Shown here piece after piece: positions 42,237-52,748 of a stretch of DNA of 64,000 bases. Positions within the stretch are counted from its first letter, which is position 1. The number at the start of each line of letters is the position of its first letter. Source of the stretch: Bacteroidota bacterium (GTDB lineage: Bacteria > Bacteroidota > Bacteroidia > Chitinophagales > JADIYW01); contig CAUJCO010000009.1 in assembly GCA_963169645.1 (NCBI GenBank), positions 1-64,000 on the forward strand, read 5' to 3'. Both the position numbers and the translations under genes were made by a program. The notes beneath the pieces were generated by a model. That model saw only the letters and a program-made list of their open reading frames with translations. It did not search any database and was not told where the DNA came from.

Positions 42237-43121
42237 ATGTTGCATAAAAAACGGTACATTTTATTTTGTAAAAACAGAACAGATGTTCCGATTTTTATGC
42301 AGCCATTTTGGTTAGATGCCGTTGCAGAAAATTGGGATGTTTGTTTAATGGAATCAGCATCCGTCCACTCCGCTTCACCAGATATTATTGCAGCATTTCC
42401 ATTTTGTTGGAAAGGTAATTTTTTGACAAAAAGAATTTATTTACCTTTTTTAAGTTTCTATCAATCGCCAATTTTTTTTCATTCTTTCGATGTAAAAGAA
42501 CAACAAAAAATACTCGATACTTTATCGAAACAATTACCTAAAACAATCAAATCGTATTTTAAATTTTTACCTGAATACAATGCTATTCAACTAAAAAAAT
42601 CAACGTATAAAAAATACGAAACATATATGCTGCATCCGAACGATGCAATTACGCTAACGAATAACCACAAACGCAATGTGCAAAAAGGAATTAAATCCGG
42701 TTATCACATAGAAATCAGTAAAGATATTGATGCATCTTTTGAATTAATCAATGCTACTTTCATTCGAAAAAAAATGACCACCAAAATAGATTTGGATACA
42801 TTTCGCACCATAAATAAAGTGGTAAAGAAACAGCATGCCGGCAACACCTATAATTGTTACGACAACAACCATCATTTATTAGCTACTGCTTTTGTTGTTC
42901 ACGATACAACATGTGCTTATTATTTATTAAGTGGGTATGATACAAAAAAAAGTAATTCAGGAGCAATGACTTATTTACTGCATGAACTCATCCAACTACA
43001 TCAAAAAGAAAGTAGAACATTTAATTTTTGCGGAAGTACTCAAAAAACAATTGCACATTTTTTTGAAGGATTTGGAGCTAAAAAACAAGCAATTTCTATT
43101 TGGGAAAATTCCATTTTTTAA
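42237..43121 (+). CDS. FemAB/GNAT-like acyltransferase
   Basis: The 294-residue protein resembles the double-GNAT FemAB or BioF2-like group: an N-terminal half with FMQPFWLDAVAENWDVCLM, then a second half with NNHKRNVQKGIKSGYHIEI, ATAFVVHDTTCAYYLLSGYD, GAMTYLLHELIQLHQ and a final FNFCGSTQKTIAHFFEGFGAKK. These enzymes transfer amino acids or acyl groups to envelope or cell-wall acceptors. The acceptor is unknown. It starts nine bases after the peptidase gene and converges on the glycan operon with interlocked stops. Confidence 0.82.
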   Translation: MLHKKRYILFCKNRTDVPIFMQPFWLDAVAENWDVCLMESASVHSASPDIIAAFPFCWKGNFLTKRIYLPFLSFYQSPIFFHSFDVKEQQKILDTLSKQLPKTIKSYFKFLPEYNAIQLKKSTYKKYETYMLHPNDAITLTNNHKRNVQKGIKSGYHIEISKDIDASFELINATFIRKKMTTKIDLDTFRTINKVVKKQHAGNTYNCYDNNHHLLATAFVVHDTTCAYYLLSGYDTKKSNSGAMTYLLHELIQLHQKESRTFNFCGSTQKTIAHFFEGFGAKKQAISIWENSIF

Positions 43122-44035
43122 TACCACAAACGAGCTTTCACTTGCTTTAGATATTGCATTCCATTTTCGTTCATCACTATTCGTCTGGCGCGTTGCATAC
43201 GTTTAAGCATGCTTAAAATTGTTTTAAAATATACTACAACAGAAAATTTAGATTTGTATAAAAAAAATCCGCTCCAAAGTATAAAATGAGTAAGCACATA
43301 CAACCAAGGTAAATGTTTATATACAACAATCATTTTATTTTCAAACATGCGTGCTTGCGTAACAACACTCGGTTCTCTTCCGTTCGGATTTTGTTTGTGA
43401 ATAACTAAAATATCTTTGGTAAATAAAATAGAATAACCGGCTTTTACGGTGGCATAACTTAAATCATATTCTTCCATTCCATAAAAAAAATCTGTTTGAT
43501 AAAATCCGGTTTCTACAATTAAATCGCGTGGAAAAACATGGCCATAACCGAAAAACAAATTGTAAAATATTTCTTGTTTCCCTTCTATTAATGTTGGATT
43601 TTTTAAAGGCATATCGAATTTTCCGGTAAATGGATTTTGACCTAAAAAACCAATTATAGCTAACTTTTCTTTTTCATATTTTAGATACAAATCCAATACT
43701 TTTTGAATAACATCTTTATTGGCTATTTCAGCATCATCATCCATAAACAATACGTATTTTCCGGTAGCTTTTTGAATGCATAAATTTCGTCCACCTGAAA
43801 CACCTAAGTTTTTGGCACTGTTTATATAATTAATACAACTTCTATCTACTTCATTGAGTTGATTAATATAATTTGGAATGATGGAATAATCTGTTGTGGA
43901 ACCATTGTTTAAAACAATAATTTCTTTTTTCCATCCATCAACATTATCTAACTGCAATACATTTTTAATGGCATCAACGGTATCTTCTGCCCTATTAAAA
44001 CTGATTATTAAAAATGAAAAGACATCCAACTTCAT
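43118..44035 (-). CDS. Glycosyltransferase family 2
   Basis: The 305-residue enzyme has a GT-A fold: an N-terminal SFNRAEDTVDAIKNVLQ region, the DDDAE metal motif after GKYVLFM, and an ED-like acidic loop near FFYGMEEYDLS, followed by a hydrophobic C-terminal segment. It likely adds one sugar to a lipid-linked glycan at the cytosolic side of the membrane. It is the last gene of the minus-strand glycan operon; its start overlaps the YfhO stop by one base. Confidence 0.9.
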   Translation of the reverse strand: MKLDVFSFLIISFNRAEDTVDAIKNVLQLDNVDGWKKEIIVLNNGSTTDYSIIPNYINQLNEVDRSCINYINSAKNLGVSGGRNLCIQKATGKYVLFMDDDAEIANKDVIQKVLDLYLKYEKEKLAIIGFLGQNPFTGKFDMPLKNPTLIEGKQEIFYNLFFGYGHVFPRDLIVETGFYQTDFFYGMEEYDLSYATVKAGYSILFTKDILVIHKQNPNGREPSVVTQARMFENKMIVVYKHLPWLYVLTHFILWSGFFLYKSKFSVVVYFKTILSMLKRMQRARRIVMNENGMQYLKQVKARLWY

Positions 44036-46713
44036 TACGCAATAGTTTGTTCATCTGTCGGTGAAACAGCTTGTTTTCTTTTTCTAAAAAACAATACTAA
44101 TGCACCAACTATTATCAAGTTAAATAAAACATTGCCTGCTAACAAAACATTTTCAGTAGATGCATATAATTTTGGTTTAAACTCAAAAGTAATTTTATGG
44201 TTACCGGCCGGAACCTTCATACCGCGTAAAATATAATTCACACGAATATGGTCTGCTTGTTTGCCGTCGATGTACGAAATCCAATCTTCATTTGGACGAT
44301 AAATAACTTCGGAGAAAACAACAAACTCATCTTTTGGCGATTGAAACTGATATTCAAATTTCATCGGATTTTTAGCATCAACCAATCGGATATTTCTTAT
44401 TTCATTTTGCGAAGAAGAATCAGCATTCGGCGTAAAACCATTTATATATGCATTAAACTCCGTATTTACGATTGCAGTTTGTGCAGGATTAATGTCGCGT
44501 ACTTTCAAAATCTCATCTTCCGGAGTGCTAATCGTTTGAAAATTATTGACAAACCAAGCATTACCTAAAGCAAAATTGTTTATAGCAACACCATTAGCTT
44601 CCGGTGATTGCTTAATATATTTTGTATTGAGCATATTTAAAAAATTGGCTTTCGAAAAACCAACTTTATTAATTAATTGAAAATCGTAGCTTAATCCATA
44701 TTGAATTACATCTTGATAACGACGTAATTTTGCCGGATTGTAACCACCAATTGTGCGGTGATAATAAGCCGGATTGGCACTGTTAAACAAATCAACCGTA
44801 AAATCTACCATTCTGGCACCATCTTTATTTTGTGCTAAGATAGCAGCATCTGCGGGTGTTTCCGGAAATGTATTTACTTCAACCGTTGATTTATCTTCAA
44901 AATCTGTATCATTTAAATAGCGTTTGTTTATCATCCAAAAATCTATCAATATCAATATTGTAATGATGGATAAAACAACATTTTTTTGTTTCCATTTTCC
45001 GGAAGCAAATACCAATAATAATCCGGCAACAAGTGCTACAAACAATAAAGAACGCATCGCATCGGAACGCATCATGCTTGCTCTATCTTGTTTTAATGCA
45101 GTATAAATTTCAGTTGCAAACTGCTCACCTGCCATTTGCACTATTTGTGCTTTAAATTGATCATCTGTTGATTGACCATTTTCGATTGCTTTGGATTGGA
45201 AAGAAAAAACACTGCCTAACACAATAAAAAAAACCAATAATCCGCCAACTATTCCGCCGGACATTTTCAACGATTTTAATCTATCTTTTTGGGTCGAAAC
45301 CGTATCATCCATAAAATCTTTAATACCTAACACACCCAATGTTACCATGAGAATTTGCGTGAGTGATAAAATCATCGTTGGAGCTCTGAATTTGTTGAAC
45401 ATTGGTACCATGTTATACAATAAGCGATAGAAGAATTCCAAGTTTTTACCAAATGCAATTAAAATAGTAAATACAATGCTTCCAATTATCCAAGGTTTTA
45501 AATTTCCTTTATAGGCAAAACATCCAAAGAAAAATAAAAATAAAACAATCGCACCTAAATACATTGGTCCTTGCACAAAAGGTTCAGAACCCCAATACAA
45601 CGGCATTCGTTGCACAAACTGACTTGCCTGTTGTGCAGGAACTCCTTTATTGGCAAGTGTTTTATAAACATTGGAATTTTCATCTAATGCACCACCGGAT
45701 GAACCACCCACAAAATTGGGTACTAAAAATGAACCTAATTCTTCTACTCCAAAACTCCATTGTGTCGCATAATCAAAGCCTACACCTTTTTCTTTTTCTG
45801 TTGTTGTTGTTGTTGTTGTTGTTGCGGATGGATTCATTTTTGCTTCGTGCAATATATCTCCACCGCGTGTAGTATCTTTAGAAAAATCATTAATAAAATA
45901 ATTATTGAAATTCATCATGCCTGCCACCACAAAACAAACTCCAATAATAGATGAACTAATGAACGCATGCTTTATATCTTTTTGTAAGATGGAACGAACA
46001 AACTCTATCAATATAAAAATAGCTATGAGCATAAAACTATAATAGGCAATTTGTACGTGTGCACCTGTTATAATTTCATACGCAAAAACAAGGCAAAGAA
46101 TTGTTCCAAGAATATATTTTTTTTGAAATATTAGCCAAACACTTGTAAACAAAGGTAAGAACATAGCAATGGTTATCACTTTTGTGATATGTCCGGCATC
46201 TAAATTGACAAAATTCACCGTACAAAATCCGATGGCAATTGCACCAATGGATGCAAACGACACACTACGAAGTAATACATAAAATGCTAAAAACGAACAA
46301 AGCAATAAAAAAACAATTTCCATTGCCGGATCGGGAATAACACGAAATAGTTTATGTATATACAAAACTGCCGGTTGTATAATTGGTTCAAATTGCAAAC
46401 CGCCAATCATATACGACGGCATACCACTAAACATTCGAGACGACCACAACGAAGTATGTCCGTTAGCTGCTTTAAAATCAGCGGTTTCTTTGTTCATTGC
46501 TATATATTGATTGGAGTCATGTGTTGACAATTGCATACCATCCATCAAAGGTTTACAATAGAAGTATGCCAATGCAATAAAAATCAATAAAACAATTGGA
46601 ATTACGATTTTATTGGATATTTGAAATGAACTATCTGAATTATTTTTTGATGTAGTTACCGTTGATTTTTTAGGAATAGAAGTTAATGGCTTCTGTGGTT
46701 GTTTTTTGGACAT
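44035..46713 (-). CDS. YfhO-like membrane protein (GT-C type)
   Basis: The 892-residue protein has about a dozen membrane helices between residues 33 and 600 and a large extracytoplasmic C-terminal domain, followed by one last helix and a short charged tail. Members of the YfhO family in Gram-positive bacteria glycosylate lipoteichoic acid with lipid-linked sugars. The Asp-rich loop with DGMQLSTHDSNQY after helix 1 is typical of GT-C folds. A run of eight Thr codons lies in an outer loop. It probably modifies the glycan made by this operon on the outside of the inner membrane. Confidence 0.85.
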   Translation of the reverse strand: MSKKQPQKPLTSIPKKSTVTTSKNNSDSSFQISNKIVIPIVLLIFIALAYFYCKPLMDGMQLSTHDSNQYIAMNKETADFKAANGHTSLWSSRMFSGMPSYMIGGLQFEPIIQPAVLYIHKLFRVIPDPAMEIVFLLLCSFLAFYVLLRSVSFASIGAIAIGFCTVNFVNLDAGHITKVITIAMFLPLFTSVWLIFQKKYILGTILCLVFAYEIITGAHVQIAYYSFMLIAIFILIEFVRSILQKDIKHAFISSSIIGVCFVVAGMMNFNNYFINDFSKDTTRGGDILHEAKMNPSATTTTTTTTEKEKGVGFDYATQWSFGVEELGSFLVPNFVGGSSGGALDENSNVYKTLANKGVPAQQASQFVQRMPLYWGSEPFVQGPMYLGAIVLFLFFFGCFAYKGNLKPWIIGSIVFTILIAFGKNLEFFYRLLYNMVPMFNKFRAPTMILSLTQILMVTLGVLGIKDFMDDTVSTQKDRLKSLKMSGGIVGGLLVFFIVLGSVFSFQSKAIENGQSTDDQFKAQIVQMAGEQFATEIYTALKQDRASMMRSDAMRSLLFVALVAGLLLVFASGKWKQKNVVLSIITILILIDFWMINKRYLNDTDFEDKSTVEVNTFPETPADAAILAQNKDGARMVDFTVDLFNSANPAYYHRTIGGYNPAKLRRYQDVIQYGLSYDFQLINKVGFSKANFLNMLNTKYIKQSPEANGVAINNFALGNAWFVNNFQTISTPEDEILKVRDINPAQTAIVNTEFNAYINGFTPNADSSSQNEIRNIRLVDAKNPMKFEYQFQSPKDEFVVFSEVIYRPNEDWISYIDGKQADHIRVNYILRGMKVPAGNHKITFEFKPKLYASTENVLLAGNVLFNLIIVGALVLFFRKRKQAVSPTDEQTIA
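45800..45823. repeat. (GTT)8 trinucleotide repeat inside the YfhO-like gene
   Basis: Eight perfect GTT units (AAC on the coding strand, read in the frame ACA) encode eight consecutive Thr residues. Unit changes would keep the frame and alter only the length of the Thr run in a loop predicted to face outside. Confidence 0.85.
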
Positions 46714-46733: not shown

Positions 46734-47621
46734 TTACAATTTTATCCATTGCTGTGGAATAATATCTGCTGAATTTATGTGGTTATCTGCAAACCAATTT
46801 TTGGGTGCAATTACTATTTTATGTGGGTTATTATTCAACCAAGCTGCCCACCAACTGAAAGTACTATTACAGATAATTTGATGCTGACACATCGACATTA
46901 ATTGCATATCAATATAGCTGGATTTGGCAGTATGATTATTGGAAACAAAAACAAGTGGAAAATCCACTTTTAAATGCGTTTTCACCCAATTTATATCATC
47001 TGAAAAAACATAAAAAACAGGATTTTCTATTTTATCAGAAATTGTGTGAATGGCTTGATGATAAAACGACAATGGAATTTGAGCAAATTTTTGAACATTT
47101 TGTTTTAAGGCAATATAATCACCTCGACGAATATGTAAAGCCACTGCATTCGAAGTATTGATTTGTGCAGCTAATTCTTTATTTAAACCTGTTAAAGGAT
47201 TTTTGAAAGTAAAATCAGAACGAATAATATTTTCATACGCTTTAAAATATAACTCGGATTGGAAATTTCCTTTTAGATAGGAATTATCTTCCACTTCTAA
47301 AAAAGTGGGTTGAAAATGATGTGCTGTTTCTGCAACATATTGGAATTTAGCTTGATTATACTGATGACGCAATAAATATTCTGTTTTGGCAAAAGGATAT
47401 AATCGGCTCGTTCGTATAATATTCCGCTCAACAGTTGCTTTAATATCAAAAATATCTAACTCATACCGCATAGGTGTACTGATAGATTTTATGGGCAATT
47501 TGCTATCTACATACGATGTATTTAAAACTAAATCGGTATGGTTTTTTAAAGACAATGCTCTTCCCAATGCATATTGAAACATTTGATTTCCTAATCCGCC
47601 GGTGAGTAATATTTTTATCAA
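46734..47621 (-). CDS. Glycosyltransferase family 11 (alpha-1,2-fucosyltransferase-like)
   Basis: The 295-residue enzyme shows GT11 marks: the N-terminal GGLGNQMFQYALGRAL (8-23), the GDP-fucose-binding HIRRGDY (163-169) and STFSWWAAWL (253-262). GT11 enzymes transfer fucose alpha-1,2 to galactose or similar acceptors, giving an H-antigen-like end. It is directly downstream of the GT6 gene (12 bases) and upstream of the YfhO-like gene, so the two glycosyltransferases are probably used on the same glycan. Confidence 0.95.
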   Translation of the reverse strand: MIKILLTGGLGNQMFQYALGRALSLKNHTDLVLNTSYVDSKLPIKSISTPMRYELDIFDIKATVERNIIRTSRLYPFAKTEYLLRHQYNQAKFQYVAETAHHFQPTFLEVEDNSYLKGNFQSELYFKAYENIIRSDFTFKNPLTGLNKELAAQINTSNAVALHIRRGDYIALKQNVQKFAQIPLSFYHQAIHTISDKIENPVFYVFSDDINWVKTHLKVDFPLVFVSNNHTAKSSYIDMQLMSMCQHQIICNSTFSWWAAWLNNNPHKIVIAPKNWFADNHINSADIIPQQWIKL

Positions 47622-47633
47622 CTTGAGAATTTA

Positions 47634-48446
47634 TTAAATAAAAGAATATCCAAAAATTTTATACAAACCGGCACGCACCACTAATTTAAGGTAAAACATT
47701 TTTGATTTGATAAATTGAAAATTGCTTTGCTTATTTTCACCGCGTAAAAATGCATGACCGCCTAATTTATTTTTATCTAGCAACCATGTTTTCTGTTCAA
47801 ATGGTAAATACCAACCTTGCGGATAACAATAACCCGGATGTAATTTTTTGGGTTCTAACTGGGAAAAATATTGATTGATATGCGATTCATCGTGCCATTG
47901 TGCCAGTAAGTTATTCGATGTATCTATATCAATTTGTTGTTTAAGTGTTCGGCACATCTTTAAAAATTCCGAAGTTCTGCCACCAATCAAACCACCGGCA
48001 AAATAATAGTTACCTGCTGAAGCCGGAATGTATGCTGTTGATGCAGGATTCTTTTCGTAATCAAATTGCGAACGTTGCTTGTGATACGCCACCGGATGAA
48101 TTTGACCAACTAAAAAATTATCGGTTGCTGTTGGCAATAATTCGTTGGCATATATTGGTTGAATAAACGTATAATTGGCATTAAAAAAAAATAGATAATC
48201 CATTTCATTTAAAGCGGTTTCAATATTTAAAAACAAATGAAAACGCATCAATGTATCATTTGGCCATCCTAATCTTTCTTGATAGATAGTATGTACAAAT
48301 GTTGACTTTTCGATGTTTTTACTTTCTGTAAAAACAAAATAATGTTTCTCAACATTGGGCAACAAATATTGTTCGGCACTTTCGTAAAAGCCATTCCAAA
48401 ATACATCGTATTTTCCGGTACAGATATATAGAATGCCTATTTTCAT
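47634..48446 (-). CDS. Glycosyltransferase family 6 (ABO blood-group transferase family)
   Basis: The 270-residue protein matches GT6 at several known sites: NAN (89-91) replaces the DxD metal motif, as reported for bacterial members; HPVAYHK (117-123) and AYIPASAGNYYFAGGLIGG (138-156) correspond to the donor and acceptor pocket of human ABO transferase; WHDESHINQY (184-193) is the family hallmark with the catalytic Glu. GT6 enzymes add alpha-1,3-linked Gal or GalNAc to a fucosylated galactose. A Gly at the position of human Gly268 agrees more with GalNAc, but this is weak evidence. It overlaps the flippase gene by four bases. Confidence 0.93.
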   Translation of the reverse strand: MKIGILYICTGKYDVFWNGFYESAEQYLLPNVEKHYFVFTESKNIEKSTFVHTIYQERLGWPNDTLMRFHLFLNIETALNEMDYLFFFNANYTFIQPIYANELLPTATDNFLVGQIHPVAYHKQRSQFDYEKNPASTAYIPASAGNYYFAGGLIGGRTSEFLKMCRTLKQQIDIDTSNNLLAQWHDESHINQYFSQLEPKKLHPGYCYPQGWYLPFEQKTWLLDKNKLGGHAFLRGENKQSNFQFIKSKMFYLKLVVRAGLYKIFGYSFI

Positions 48447-49891
48447 TTCAACTTATTTCTAAATTGTTGTAAAATATTTCGCCAAAGATAACTTATCACT
48501 ATTAAATAAATAACCGCTTTGATGGTTATTTGAAGATAGATATTAGCTACTAGAATGGTAATAAAATAATTGAGTATCAAAACAATGGCTATGATGATAA
48601 AATAATCAACAAAACGAATGGCTGCCGGAACACGCATCGTAACTATCTTTTTACATATTAAATAGGTGCAAATCATCATAAAACCATAAGAAGCTAATGT
48701 GGTATATGCTGCGGCTACATAGCCATATTTTGGAATAAAAATAAGATTCAAAACAAAATTTACGATGGCAGAAACCGCAAAACTGTAATAGAAATACTTT
48801 ACTTTTTTTTCGTAATGAAAATAGAAGCTATAAATCTCATTTATGTCCGAAAAAATATAAGATAAAATTAAAATCGGCATTAGATGCAAACCATCGTAAA
48901 AGGCTTTATTGAGTGCTAAAATTTTTCCACCATCTGCTGCAAAGAATATAAATAATGCAGATAGTGCCACCACCATTTTAAACATACTTCGCATTTGCGC
49001 TATAACTGCTACTTCGTTATGTTGATTGAGTAACTCAAATAATTTAGGACGATTTGCCGTGATGAAAGATGTGGTAACGCCGGAATAGATTACTGCAAAC
49101 TTATACGCATAACTATACAAACCGGCATCATGACTGCCTTCAAAATTATTAATCATAATGGTGTCCAAATATCCAAGTGCGAACCCACTTAACCCAATTG
49201 GTATAAAACTAACTGAATACGAAAGGATTTCTTTTTTATGTGTTTTTGAAATGTGGTCGTTGATGCCAATGTAATTTCTAAAATAAACGATTATAATTAG
49301 AATAGACAGAATAAACAAAATCAAATTCTCACCTACTATTCTGCCCTCATAGTTTTTTTGCCAATAGATAACAAATAATACGGCTGTTACTACTCGAAAT
49401 AATTGAGAAATTATTTGCCAAATTCCGGATTGTGTACTAAAGCGTTGTGCAGTGTTATATGTATTAAAAAAATTAAAAATGATATTTGCAAATACGGCAA
49501 GTAAAATCCAAGCTAATAAATTGGTAGGCAAACTCACTAATTCCATAAATGGACGTTGAAACAGCCATAAAACCAGCACACTTATGAAGAAAGATAGTAA
49601 GGAAGTGCGTAACACATATCGCATTAAATCTTGCTTATCCAAATTTTCATCAAAATAAAAACGATAAAAACCATTGAATAAATTTAAAGAAACTAAAATT
49701 CCTAACACACGAACGGTGTTATTAAATACTTCATAAATTCCAAAATCGGCAGGCTGTAATAACTTTGTAAAAATAGGTAACGAAACAACGCTAATAAATT
49801 GAGTTACTACAAATGCAATCGTATAAACAGAGCCATGTTTGAGTGTCTCGTAGAATGCAAGCGATTGAATATATGTAATTAATTTCTTCAA
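48443..49891 (-). CDS. Oligosaccharide flippase (Wzx-like)
   Basis: The 482-residue protein has 12 to 14 predicted membrane helices, with the N-terminal GSVYTIAFVVTQFISVVSLPIFTKLLQPADFGIYEV pattern of Wzx/MVF proteins. It should turn a lipid-linked oligosaccharide to the periplasmic side. Start and stop overlap the neighbouring genes by four bases each (GT2 upstream, GT6 downstream), so it belongs to the same operon. No Wzy polymerase candidate was seen in the window. Confidence 0.92.
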   Translation of the reverse strand: MKKLITYIQSLAFYETLKHGSVYTIAFVVTQFISVVSLPIFTKLLQPADFGIYEVFNNTVRVLGILVSLNLFNGFYRFYFDENLDKQDLMRYVLRTSLLSFFISVLVLWLFQRPFMELVSLPTNLLAWILLAVFANIIFNFFNTYNTAQRFSTQSGIWQIISQLFRVVTAVLFVIYWQKNYEGRIVGENLILFILSILIIIVYFRNYIGINDHISKTHKKEILSYSVSFIPIGLSGFALGYLDTIMINNFEGSHDAGLYSYAYKFAVIYSGVTTSFITANRPKLFELLNQHNEVAVIAQMRSMFKMVVALSALFIFFAADGGKILALNKAFYDGLHLMPILILSYIFSDINEIYSFYFHYEKKVKYFYYSFAVSAIVNFVLNLIFIPKYGYVAAAYTTLASYGFMMICTYLICKKIVTMRVPAAIRFVDYFIIIAIVLILNYFITILVANIYLQITIKAVIYLIVISYLWRNILQQFRNKLK

Positions 49892-50928
49892 TTGGATAAA
49901 GATATAATCTGCTTATGTAAAAATGAAAATACAAATATGGCGATTTCTTTTTTTCTCAGTTCCATTGAAATTGTTGGCTGTAATTGTTTCTTAAACTGTC
50001 GAAGCGTTTTATAAACGGAGAAATTATATTGTTTTAAACGCAATAATTTTTTCAAAATACGTTCATACAAAACTTGTTTTAAAATGGCGTCATCAAAATG
50101 TTGGAAGGTTGCATTGAGTGCTAATAATTTAGTTATCCATTTTTGCAATTCCGGCAAATCATCGATATTATTTTTTAGAGAAAACTCTACAAGGCTGAGG
50201 TGCACTTGTTCTTCTTCTTTTGAAAATTGATTAGGAAAATAATATTCTAATTGATTGACGATAATCTTGTTTCTATTCTCGCGAGCTTCTTTCTCTTTTC
50301 GATGCGATACGCTTGTATTGTAAGACCTATAAATTGCTAAATAGGTAGGCAATATTTTTCCTTTTTTTTTCAATAACATTCGAACCCACAAATCGTAATC
50401 TTCACAAGGTGGATAATCTTCTCTGAATATTTCGGTTGGCAAAATAGCTTTCTTAAACATTACAGTTGATGTGACAATCGGATTGAAAAACAATAAGTTT
50501 ATTTTTAATTCTGAAGAGTTACAATCAAACTTTAGTGCATCTAAATTCTGCTTACCGTCATCTGTTTGAACAACAACACTACTAGAAATAAAATCTAAAT
50601 CATCCTGATTTTTCAAAAAATTATATTCTACTTCTAAACGATTCGGTTCAGCTATATCATCACTATCTAAAAAAGCAACAAAAGGACAATTTGCCAATTG
50701 AATCAATCTATTACGTACAAATGCCAATCCTTTATTGCCCTCATTTTGGTAATATTTAATTCTCGTATCAATAAAAGAAGAAATTAGTTGATGTGTTTTA
50801 TCAGTAGAGCCATCATTCACAATAATTAATTCAAAATCTTTAAAAGTTTGATTTAAAATACTGTTGATTGCTTGTTCTATATATTTTTCGGCATTATATG
50901 CCGGCATTAATACACTTATTTGAGGCAT
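49888..50928 (-). CDS. Glycosyltransferase family 2
   Basis: The 346-residue protein is a GT-A enzyme: SVLMPAYNAEKYIEQAINSILNQTFKDFELIIVNDGSTD at the N-terminus, the DxD-like FLDSDDIAEPNR and the acceptor-side ED in CEDYDLWVRMLL. The last 100 residues form basic helices. It likely adds an internal sugar of the glycan. It starts the second part of the operon after a 144-base AT-rich gap and overlaps the flippase gene by four bases. Confidence 0.93.
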   Translation of the reverse strand: MPQISVLMPAYNAEKYIEQAINSILNQTFKDFELIIVNDGSTDKTHQLISSFIDTRIKYYQNEGNKGLAFVRNRLIQLANCPFVAFLDSDDIAEPNRLEVEYNFLKNQDDLDFISSSVVVQTDDGKQNLDALKFDCNSSELKINLLFFNPIVTSTVMFKKAILPTEIFREDYPPCEDYDLWVRMLLKKKGKILPTYLAIYRSYNTSVSHRKEKEARENRNKIIVNQLEYYFPNQFSKEEEQVHLSLVEFSLKNNIDDLPELQKWITKLLALNATFQHFDDAILKQVLYERILKKLLRLKQYNFSVYKTLRQFKKQLQPTISMELRKKEIAIFVFSFLHKQIISLSN

Positions 50929-51072: not shown

Positions 51073-51876
51073 TTATTTCAATATTGTTCTTCTAAATTTT
51101 TTATATGATTTTTTAAATGAAATAAAGGCTTGTTGCTTCGCCAAATACCATTTCGATTTCTTATTTATAATAAAATCGCGTTGCACCCAAAACTGATCAC
51201 CGGCAGTGGTATATACCGTATCTTCAATTTTTACAAAGTGATGTTGCAACATAAAATTGGCAATATCTTTTTCTAAAGGTTGTCCTTTATACAATTCTTC
51301 GGCTTCTACTTCAAGCCAAATCATTTTTATTTGATTGATAAAATCGCCAGCACCTTGCAACACCATTAATTCAGCACCTTGCACATCCATGTGTATATAA
51401 TCAACAGTACTTATGGCATGTTGCTTACAAAAATCAATCAGTGTAGTCGTTGGCACTTTAATGGTTTTTTCAAATTTTAGCCAAGGATGTACTTCTAAGG
51501 TTTTTTCCGGTGGCAATATGGAACTACTTTTGTTTCCAAAATTCCAATCTTTCATTTCTTTATCATCTGGATTTCCGGATGAAAGATGAAAGGTTGTCTC
51601 TCCAATTGTATTAGATAAACAAGACGAAATTGGATGCATATTTTCCACTCGATATTTTTCTTTATTTTGAATTACTAAATCAAAATTAGAAGGCAATGGC
51701 TCAAAGGTATAAATGGTTGCTTTGGGAAAAAGTCGTGCATAACGGATAGAATTTTCACCTTCACAGGCACCAATATCAAAGATGCAAATCGACTCATCCT
51801 TCGAAATTATAGAGGTTAATATCTTTTCTTGTAATTGTAAAGTCGGGTTGTGGATATACTTTTCTCGCTCACTCAT
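51073..51876 (-). CDS. FkbM family methyltransferase
   Basis: The 267-residue protein has the FkbM S-adenosylmethionine fold: FDIGACEGENSIRYARLFPKATIYTFEPLP, then VPTTTLIDF and YIHMDVQGAELMVLQGAG. Such enzymes O-methylate sugars in several surface glycans. The start is placed at the ATG at 51876, which overlaps the upstream GT11 stop as TAATG; an upstream Met 15 bases away would overlap more. A 144-base gap separates it from the downstream GT2 gene. Confidence 0.92.
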   Translation of the reverse strand: MSEREKYIHNPTLQLQEKILTSIISKDESICIFDIGACEGENSIRYARLFPKATIYTFEPLPSNFDLVIQNKEKYRVENMHPISSCLSNTIGETTFHLSSGNPDDKEMKDWNFGNKSSSILPPEKTLEVHPWLKFEKTIKVPTTTLIDFCKQHAISTVDYIHMDVQGAELMVLQGAGDFINQIKMIWLEVEAEELYKGQPLEKDIANFMLQHHFVKIEDTVYTTAGDQFWVQRDFIINKKSKWYLAKQQAFISFKKSYKKFRRTILK

Positions 51877-52748
51877 TATTTTAAAATCCAATTTTTAGGT
51901 GCTAAATCTACGGATTCAGTCAAAATATTATTCATCCAATGTTTAGGCAATATTACTTTTTTAGATTCATACTTATTTAACCAAGCAGCCCACCAACTAA
52001 AGGTGCTGTTCGCTATTATGTTATGCTTGCACAGGCTCATTAAATAAAAATCTTCAATAGTTGATTTTTTTTCAATCAACGTACAATTGATAGCCCAATC
52101 CATTTCTTTTTGCACCCAAGCCGCATCATCCGTAAATAAAAAGAATTGCAAATCCGAGCCAAGCTCCTTTTTAATCCATTCAATCGATTTAAAATAATAA
52201 TCTTTAGAGCATAATCCATGCACTTCCATAGCCGATAAATTTCGAATATAATCGCCTCTACGAAAATGAATAGATACGGAGGTTGTATCTTGAATTTTTT
52301 GAATTAATTCTATGTCCTTTGATAAATAATCCGCTTTTATCGTAAAATCTGATTTAATGGTGTCTGCAATCTCTTTAAAATATTTCTCAGACTGAAAAAA
52401 TCCACGAATGTAATAGTTGCCTCTTAATTTCAAGAAATCTTCATCGAAACCATGTTCATTAAATTTGTATTTATTTCTATTGCCAAACGATTTGATTTTA
52501 GTTATCAAACAATCACTTGTAGAAAAATCTGGTCCATGAAAGGATTTCAGTAAAGCATCATCTGCAATGTTGAAAGATGCATTAAATGCATTTAATTCAA
52601 AAGGACGTTTAGTGGTATTTGGAACATCTAACTCTAAGAATGTCGTATCCACAAACACCTCCGCATTGTTTAGTAAGGCCAAATGCTTGGCTGCCGCATA
52701 TTGAAAAAGTTGGTTGCCTAAGCCACCCATTAATCGTACAACTATCAT
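51876..52748 (-). CDS. Glycosyltransferase family 11 (fucosyltransferase-like), second copy
   Basis: The 290-residue protein has the GT11 marks MGGLGNQLFQYAAAKHL (7-23), HFRRGDY and STFSWWAAWL near the end, as in the other GT11 of this operon, but the two are only moderately similar in the middle. It is the first gene of the operon and couples to the FkbM gene (TAATG). It may add a fucose at a different position, which would make the glycan doubly fucosylated. It is divergent from the ceramidase-like gene, 45 bases away. Confidence 0.94.
   Translation of the reverse strand: MIVVRLMGGLGNQLFQYAAAKHLALLNNAEVFVDTTFLELDVPNTTKRPFELNAFNASFNIADDALLKSFHGPDFSTSDCLITKIKSFGNRNKYKFNEHGFDEDFLKLRGNYYIRGFFQSEKYFKEIADTIKSDFTIKADYLSKDIELIQKIQDTTSVSIHFRRGDYIRNLSAMEVHGLCSKDYYFKSIEWIKKELGSDLQFFLFTDDAAWVQKEMDWAINCTLIEKKSTIEDFYLMSLCKHNIIANSTFSWWAAWLNKYESKKVILPKHWMNNILTESVDLAPKNWILK

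Follow-up and report, generated by a model that had tools for sequence, protein, structure and literature searches.

The window, by which we mean the whole stretch of 64,000 nucleotides analysed, holds a run of minus-strand genes (52748 to 43118) whose predicted product is an A-like, not a B-like, surface glycan with GalNAc-alpha1,3-(Fuc-alpha1,2)-Gal as its cap. On the basis of the sequence we give this reading slightly better than an even chance. A preliminary description had proposed an A- or B-like antigen made by adjacent GT6 and GT11 genes in one operon with a flippase. Humans make their blood-group antigens with the same two kinds of enzyme, one adding the H-type fucose and the other finishing the A or B end. 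Matches to PF03414 and NF041524 (GT6, 47634-48446) and to PF01531 (GT11, 46734-47621) bear out the adjacency. The antigen itself stands in part: a pathway that makes an H-type end and then converts it to A or B is still the best reading, given the enrichment of the gene pair and its precedents, and it narrows to A-like since the AGG donor pocket is of the A type found in BoGT6a; against it, the acceptor loop departs from that of characterised H-specific GT6 enzymes, and GT11 genes persist without GT6. The genes of the run, in minus-strand order, are as follows.

51876..52748, minus strand: GT11b, the run's first gene and its second predicted alpha1,2-fucosyltransferase (PF01531, 4.8e-34)
51073..51891, minus strand: FkbM-type methyltransferase, possibly for sugar O-methylation (PF05050, 2.1e-22)
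49888..50928, minus strand: GT2a, GT2 glycosyltransferase (PF00535, 1.8e-32)
48443..49891, minus strand: Wzx-type polysaccharide flippase (PF01943, 1.4e-21)
47634..48446, minus strand: GT6 glycosyltransferase, 270 aa (PF03414, NF041524, likeness to BoGT6a)
46734..47621, minus strand: GT11a, predicted alpha1,2-fucosyltransferase with a TTG start (PF01531, E=1.4e-36)
44035..46713, minus strand: 892-aa protein, apparently rich in hydrophobic stretches, without Pfam family
43118..44035, minus strand: GT2b, GT2 glycosyltransferase, last gene of the run (PF00535, 4.1e-19)

The spacing of these genes is operon-like and places the flippase, GT6 and GT11 in one run, as had been claimed: GT2a and Wzx overlap by 4 bases, as do Wzx and GT6, GT11a lies 12 bases downstream of GT6, and the 892-aa gene begins 20 bases beyond GT11a. 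The sole gap of more than 100 bases (144) separates the FkbM gene from GT2a. Plus-strand genes flank the run on both sides – ceramidase and CoA-transferase genes on one, and on the other a FemAB/GNAT-like gene and a prolyl oligopeptidase, followed by a minus-strand acetyl-CoA synthetase-like gene. Absent from the preliminary description were GT11b (51876-52748), the FkbM gene, the two GT2 enzymes and the large membrane protein; the 892-aa protein (44035-46713), which resembles YfhO-type proteins by eye only, is conserved in the genus after GT11a. No Wzy polymerase was recognised in the run and no Wzy_C in the cluster, and for this reason we term the locus Wzx-exported rather than Wzx/Wzy. Horizontal acquisition, considered from base composition, was rejected: GC3 of the cluster is 0.259 and that of 38 other window genes is 0.258, leaving no compositional signal.

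We infer the following order of steps for a surface glycan of the Wzx-exported, undecaprenol-linked kind. The GT2 enzymes would assemble a short chain with a terminal beta-galactose; one of the GT11 enzymes, with GDP-fucose supplied through gmd and fcl, would add an alpha1,2-fucose to give an H-type end; this end would be the acceptor for GT6, which would add GalNAc in alpha1,3 linkage from UDP-GalNAc – needing no metal ion, as in BoGT6a – and so produce a blood-group-A-like end. After flipping of the unit by Wzx, the glycan would be completed on its presumptive final carrier by an O-antigen ligase or polymerase whose gene lies outside the run. The genome holds candidate genes for these outer steps. 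There is a gmd (591 bits, cut-off 415) with a probable fcl (GDP-fucose synthase) two small genes downstream, both at G000:C13 ~353.8-356.6 kb, far from the glycan run; the fcl was called from its N-terminal sequence and context, its Pfam match being to the general Epimerase family only. Outside the cluster there are also two Wzy_C genes and two PF02397 (Bac_transf) genes, that is, members of the ligase/polymerase and initiating-transferase families. A toxin-antitoxin pair, an MntA-like nucleotidyltransferase and a HepT-like protein, lies between gmd and the probable fcl (L038:4843-7551).

The central enzyme is a full-length GT6. Profile searches gave 115 bits with PF03414 (E=3.1e-33; cut-off 25) and 296 bits with NF041524 (cut-off 250), and the top match among PDB sequences was BoGT6a (E=1.3e-74; 52.7% identity over 237 aligned residues); identity to human ABO is ~32%. 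Its AlphaFold model (mean pLDDT 90.8) has BoGT6a as best Foldseek match (4cj8, TM 0.93 by target, 49% identity), and the top matches are BoGT6a with UDP-GalNAc bound. The NAN motif and family hallmarks noted earlier are in place: NAN at residues 89-91, the catalytic WHDE at 184-187, and NXN instead of DXD together with the conserved C-terminal Lys (N89-A90-N91, K225), with E187, W184 and H117 invariant across a 10-sequence alignment. The features expected of the CAZy family – a match over the family length, the GT-A fold, the catalytic Glu in WHDE and the acceptor-site His – were all found. Among 18 residues listed in PMC3961637 as contacting UDP-GalNAc or products, 16 are the same as in BoGT6a (K225, E187, W184, R68 and N89 included) and the other two, N69 and T134 in BoGT6a numbering, are both D here. 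We predict a metal-independent (NAN) UDP-GalNAc:Fuc-alpha1,2-Gal alpha1,3-GalNAc transferase. By analogy with the tail of BoGT6a, the helix at its C-terminus (242-265) may bind the membrane.

The donor pocket reads A150-G151-G152 (AGG), exactly as in BoGT6a, a GalNAc transferase, and UDP-GalNAc is predicted as donor on that account. Human GTA carries L266/G268 and GTB M266/A268, and Gly at 266 or 268 has been proposed as a requirement for GalNAc use (PMC4692239); the window enzyme has Gly at the human-268 position (G152, equivalent to G157 of BoGT6a). If the donor were instead UDP-Gal, the end would be B-like. Such use has a bacterial precedent in the GT6 WbnI of E. coli O86 (PMC4202792), and only a few residues decide which donor is used; nevertheless, with a BoGT6a-type pocket and Gly where human GTB, a Gal-using enzyme, has Ala, we consider it very improbable.

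The acceptor site retains its His (H117) and Trp (W184). All five GT6-bearing species of the genus read HPVAY at the loop that follows this His: V119, A120 and D/N129 correspond to G124, F125 and T134 of BoGT6a. At the same loop the other GT6 rows mostly have HPG, then F or Y (n=94: bacterial, phage and human rows, many of the phage rows related to each other), and Val at position 119 is confined to the genus, occurring in 0 of those 94. Since the change (HP-VA in place of HP-G/S-F/Y) is common to all five species, it calls for caution: the true acceptor could differ from the plain H disaccharide. GT6 could be an alpha1,3-GalNAc (or Gal) transferase with a pocket re-shaped for another fucosylated or methylated sugar, making a product A-like in linkage only. 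Consistent with this are the genus-fixed VA, the D/N for T134, the presence of an FkbM methyltransferase within the cluster, and the place within the changed loop of human residue 235, which belongs to the set of four positions that determine A or B (PMC4692239). Yet the catalytic and donor residues are intact, position 134 varies freely across GT6 (T, S, P, D, A), and a GT11 gene is directly adjacent, as in known A/B-antigen systems; we therefore rate this alternative as unlikely, if still deserving attention. A GT6 with so unusual an acceptor loop could be a useful enzyme.

For the A-like reading a GT11 must provide the fucose, and both GT11a and GT11b are predicted alpha1,2-fucosyltransferases. 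They are 34% identical and share the motifs GGLGNQ, HxRRGD and NSTFSWW (in GT11a, GGLGNQMF, HIRRGD and NSTFSWW); a search of the GT11a sequence against solved structures gave no match. WbgN of E. coli O55 also belongs to GT11. It is named a colitosyltransferase (PMC12723683): GT11 enzymes can thus use other donors, which counts against a path from H to A.

Comparison across the genus separates the fixed from the variable parts of the locus. Gene content and relatives point to membership of the Bacteroidota. GT6 is present in 5 of 8 genomes. The locus is syntenic with the same flanks in G002, G003, G007 and G008 (GT6 69-75% identical), and an ortholog of GT11a adjoins GT6 in every GT6-bearing genome of the genus, in G008 across a contig break. 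G004 and G006, in whose genomes no GT6 was found, have GT11b and GT11a at the same locus edges with a different assembled interior: fucosylation therefore does not need GT6. Neither GT6 nor GT11 was found in G005, a genome 85% complete. The FkbM gene is absent from its position in G003. GT2a falls into different types (86% identity to the window's in G003, 48-56% in G002, G007 and G008), so that the interior varies as O-antigen loci do, with GT11a and GT11b constant. In effect the genus offers a natural comparison of one locus in states that have GT6 and states that lack it. The GT6 phylogeny that had been suggested recovers the genus as a clade (support 100/100); deeper order is unresolved, and donor lineages thus cannot be named. 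The glycan locus of G007 also contains, on the opposite strand, a gene for a 1849-aa CHU_C/PKD secreted-type protein (L020:6527-12076).

The preliminary description was right that GT6 is rare. Carriers number 11 of 398 genomes of the order (five of them from the window's genus), 2 of 395 in the class sample and 3 of 395 in the phylum sample – samples that share some genomes – which amounts to ~1-3% in the wider Bacteroidota samples. GT11 is carried by 72 of the 398 order genomes, and its distribution is far from even: it occurs in 10 of the 11 genomes with GT6 vs 62 of the 387 without (Fisher p=2e-7, related genomes not being independent) and, outside the genus, in 5 of 6 vs 60 of 384 (p=6e-4, with the same dependence among relatives). 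Of 12 Bacteroidota genomes with GT6, counting G1090, 11 have a GT11 gene within ~3.5 kb of it on the same contig; the exception, G265, has a broken GT6 remnant only. Around the other flippase genes of 15 genomes, GT11 was found within 5 kb only at the orthologous loci of G004 and G006. G117 has a DAD-motif GT6 fused to a longer N-terminal part, beside a broken GT11 with an in-frame stop (L024:12884-15074); the tree places this enzyme beside human ABO and viral locus L057 (99/98), the ABO branch being long.

Linkage of this kind bears on whether the two enzymes act in sequence. They might merely be co-clustered, each with its own target sugar in the repeat unit, and form no H-to-A pathway, as the presence of two GT11 genes, the retention of GT11 without GT6 in G004 and G006, and the several genes separating the pair in G319, G359 and phage ACG-2014f would allow. 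We think this quite improbable: the linkage is strong, crosses phyla, often involves overlaps of a few bases and exceeds the GT11 background, and the pairs characterised in E. coli O86 and H. mustelae do act in sequence.

A contig scan for relatives returned one only, a Burkholderiales MAG (L002). Here, as in Phocaeicola massiliensis (L049), Prevotella oral taxon 299 (L050) and the cyanophages B23 (L043:3213-4723) and Bellamy (L045:3198-4717), GT6 and GT11 are adjacent with overlaps of a few bases. In cyanophage ACG-2014f (L044:2435-4726) they are two genes apart, and gmd and a fucose-synthase-like epimerase lie just upstream; to judge by gene content, the cyanophages carry an apparent H-to-A/B module. 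GT6 with GT11 thus occurs in marine cyanophages besides the gut or host-linked species stressed earlier. GT11 lies within 5 kb at 32 of 49 dereplicated GT6 loci in IMG/VR, 31 of them same-strand (raw count); none was found on L046 and L047, two short contigs of faecal phages that carry GT6. As of 2014, GT6 was known in 36 bacterial species and two cyanophages, and bacterial GT6 enzymes were almost all NXN (PMC3961637). A simple motif match to the 49 dereplicated viral GT6 sequences (loci L051-L130) gave DXD (DAD, DVD, DID) in 34 and NAN in 3. In the uncultured phage LR756502 (642 kb), a GT6 domain is part of a 530-aa protein with extra sequence (L048:4242-5834), and a GT11-like gene lies ~4 kb downstream (L048:9914-10672).

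Blood-group-like glycans of bacteria are usually explained as host mimicry, and have been proposed as one source of the natural antibodies against A and B. To us the more interesting part is that the pair turns up again in unrelated bacteria and in phages: together with the conserved locus of the genus, its presence in marine phages suggests that such structures may have roles that do not involve vertebrates, for instance in phage defence or surface variation. A tentative extension, possible but doubtful, is that GT11 and GT6 form an old, portable two-gene 'H-to-A' module circulating among Bacteroidota, Proteobacteria and marine phages and remodelling surface glycans outside vertebrate hosts; the genus would have fixed the module at one locus and re-tuned the GT6 acceptor pocket, and sister species with a different interior would have kept the fucosyltransferases only.

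Several known systems invite comparison. B. ovatus BoGT6a makes the A antigen and E. coli O86 WbnI the B antigen, the latter from an H precursor made by WbwK, a GT11 (PMC4202792); BgtA and WbnI accept fucosylated galactose (PMC12723683). H. mustelae displays the A antigen, and its AB-type glycosyltransferase HMU12050 and single predicted fucosyltransferase HMU12060 have neighbouring tags (PMC2846917). BoGT6a (PDB 4AYJ, 4CJ8) is like the window GT6 in the NAN and WHDE motifs, the AGG pocket and the GT-A fold (53% identity), and its C-terminal K231, H239 and R243 are shared; it differs in the loop (HPGFY...T vs HPVAY...D) and in N69, which is D in the window. H. mustelae, with BgtA (HMU12050) and HMU12060 under neighbouring tags and the A antigen on its LPS, is a host-associated pathogen with one predicted fucosyltransferase, whereas the window cluster has two GT11 genes. 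E. coli O86 resembles the window cluster in the sequence of a GT11 (WbwK) and then a GT6 (WbnI) making a blood-group structure on an O-antigen-type glycan, a likeness that concerns GT6 and GT11 alone; its donor is of B type (Gal), unlike the predicted A-type pocket here. P. massiliensis and Prevotella oral taxon 299 have GT6, an overlapping GT11, then a GT2, with a candidate flippase directly upstream in Prevotella and one gene upstream in Phocaeicola; their GT6 enzymes are 43-45% identical to that of the window, and the Phocaeicola cluster includes gmd and fcl, which in the window's genome are far off. The Synechococcus phages B23, Bellamy and ACG-2014f have GT11 adjacent to or near GT6, but the genes are phage-borne and the GT6 only ~30-35% identical. 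A GT6 beside a fucosyltransferase is thus already known, and the window locus is a further case in another lineage; it is marked by a conserved genus-wide arrangement, an unusual acceptor loop, and a pattern of presence and absence within the genus.
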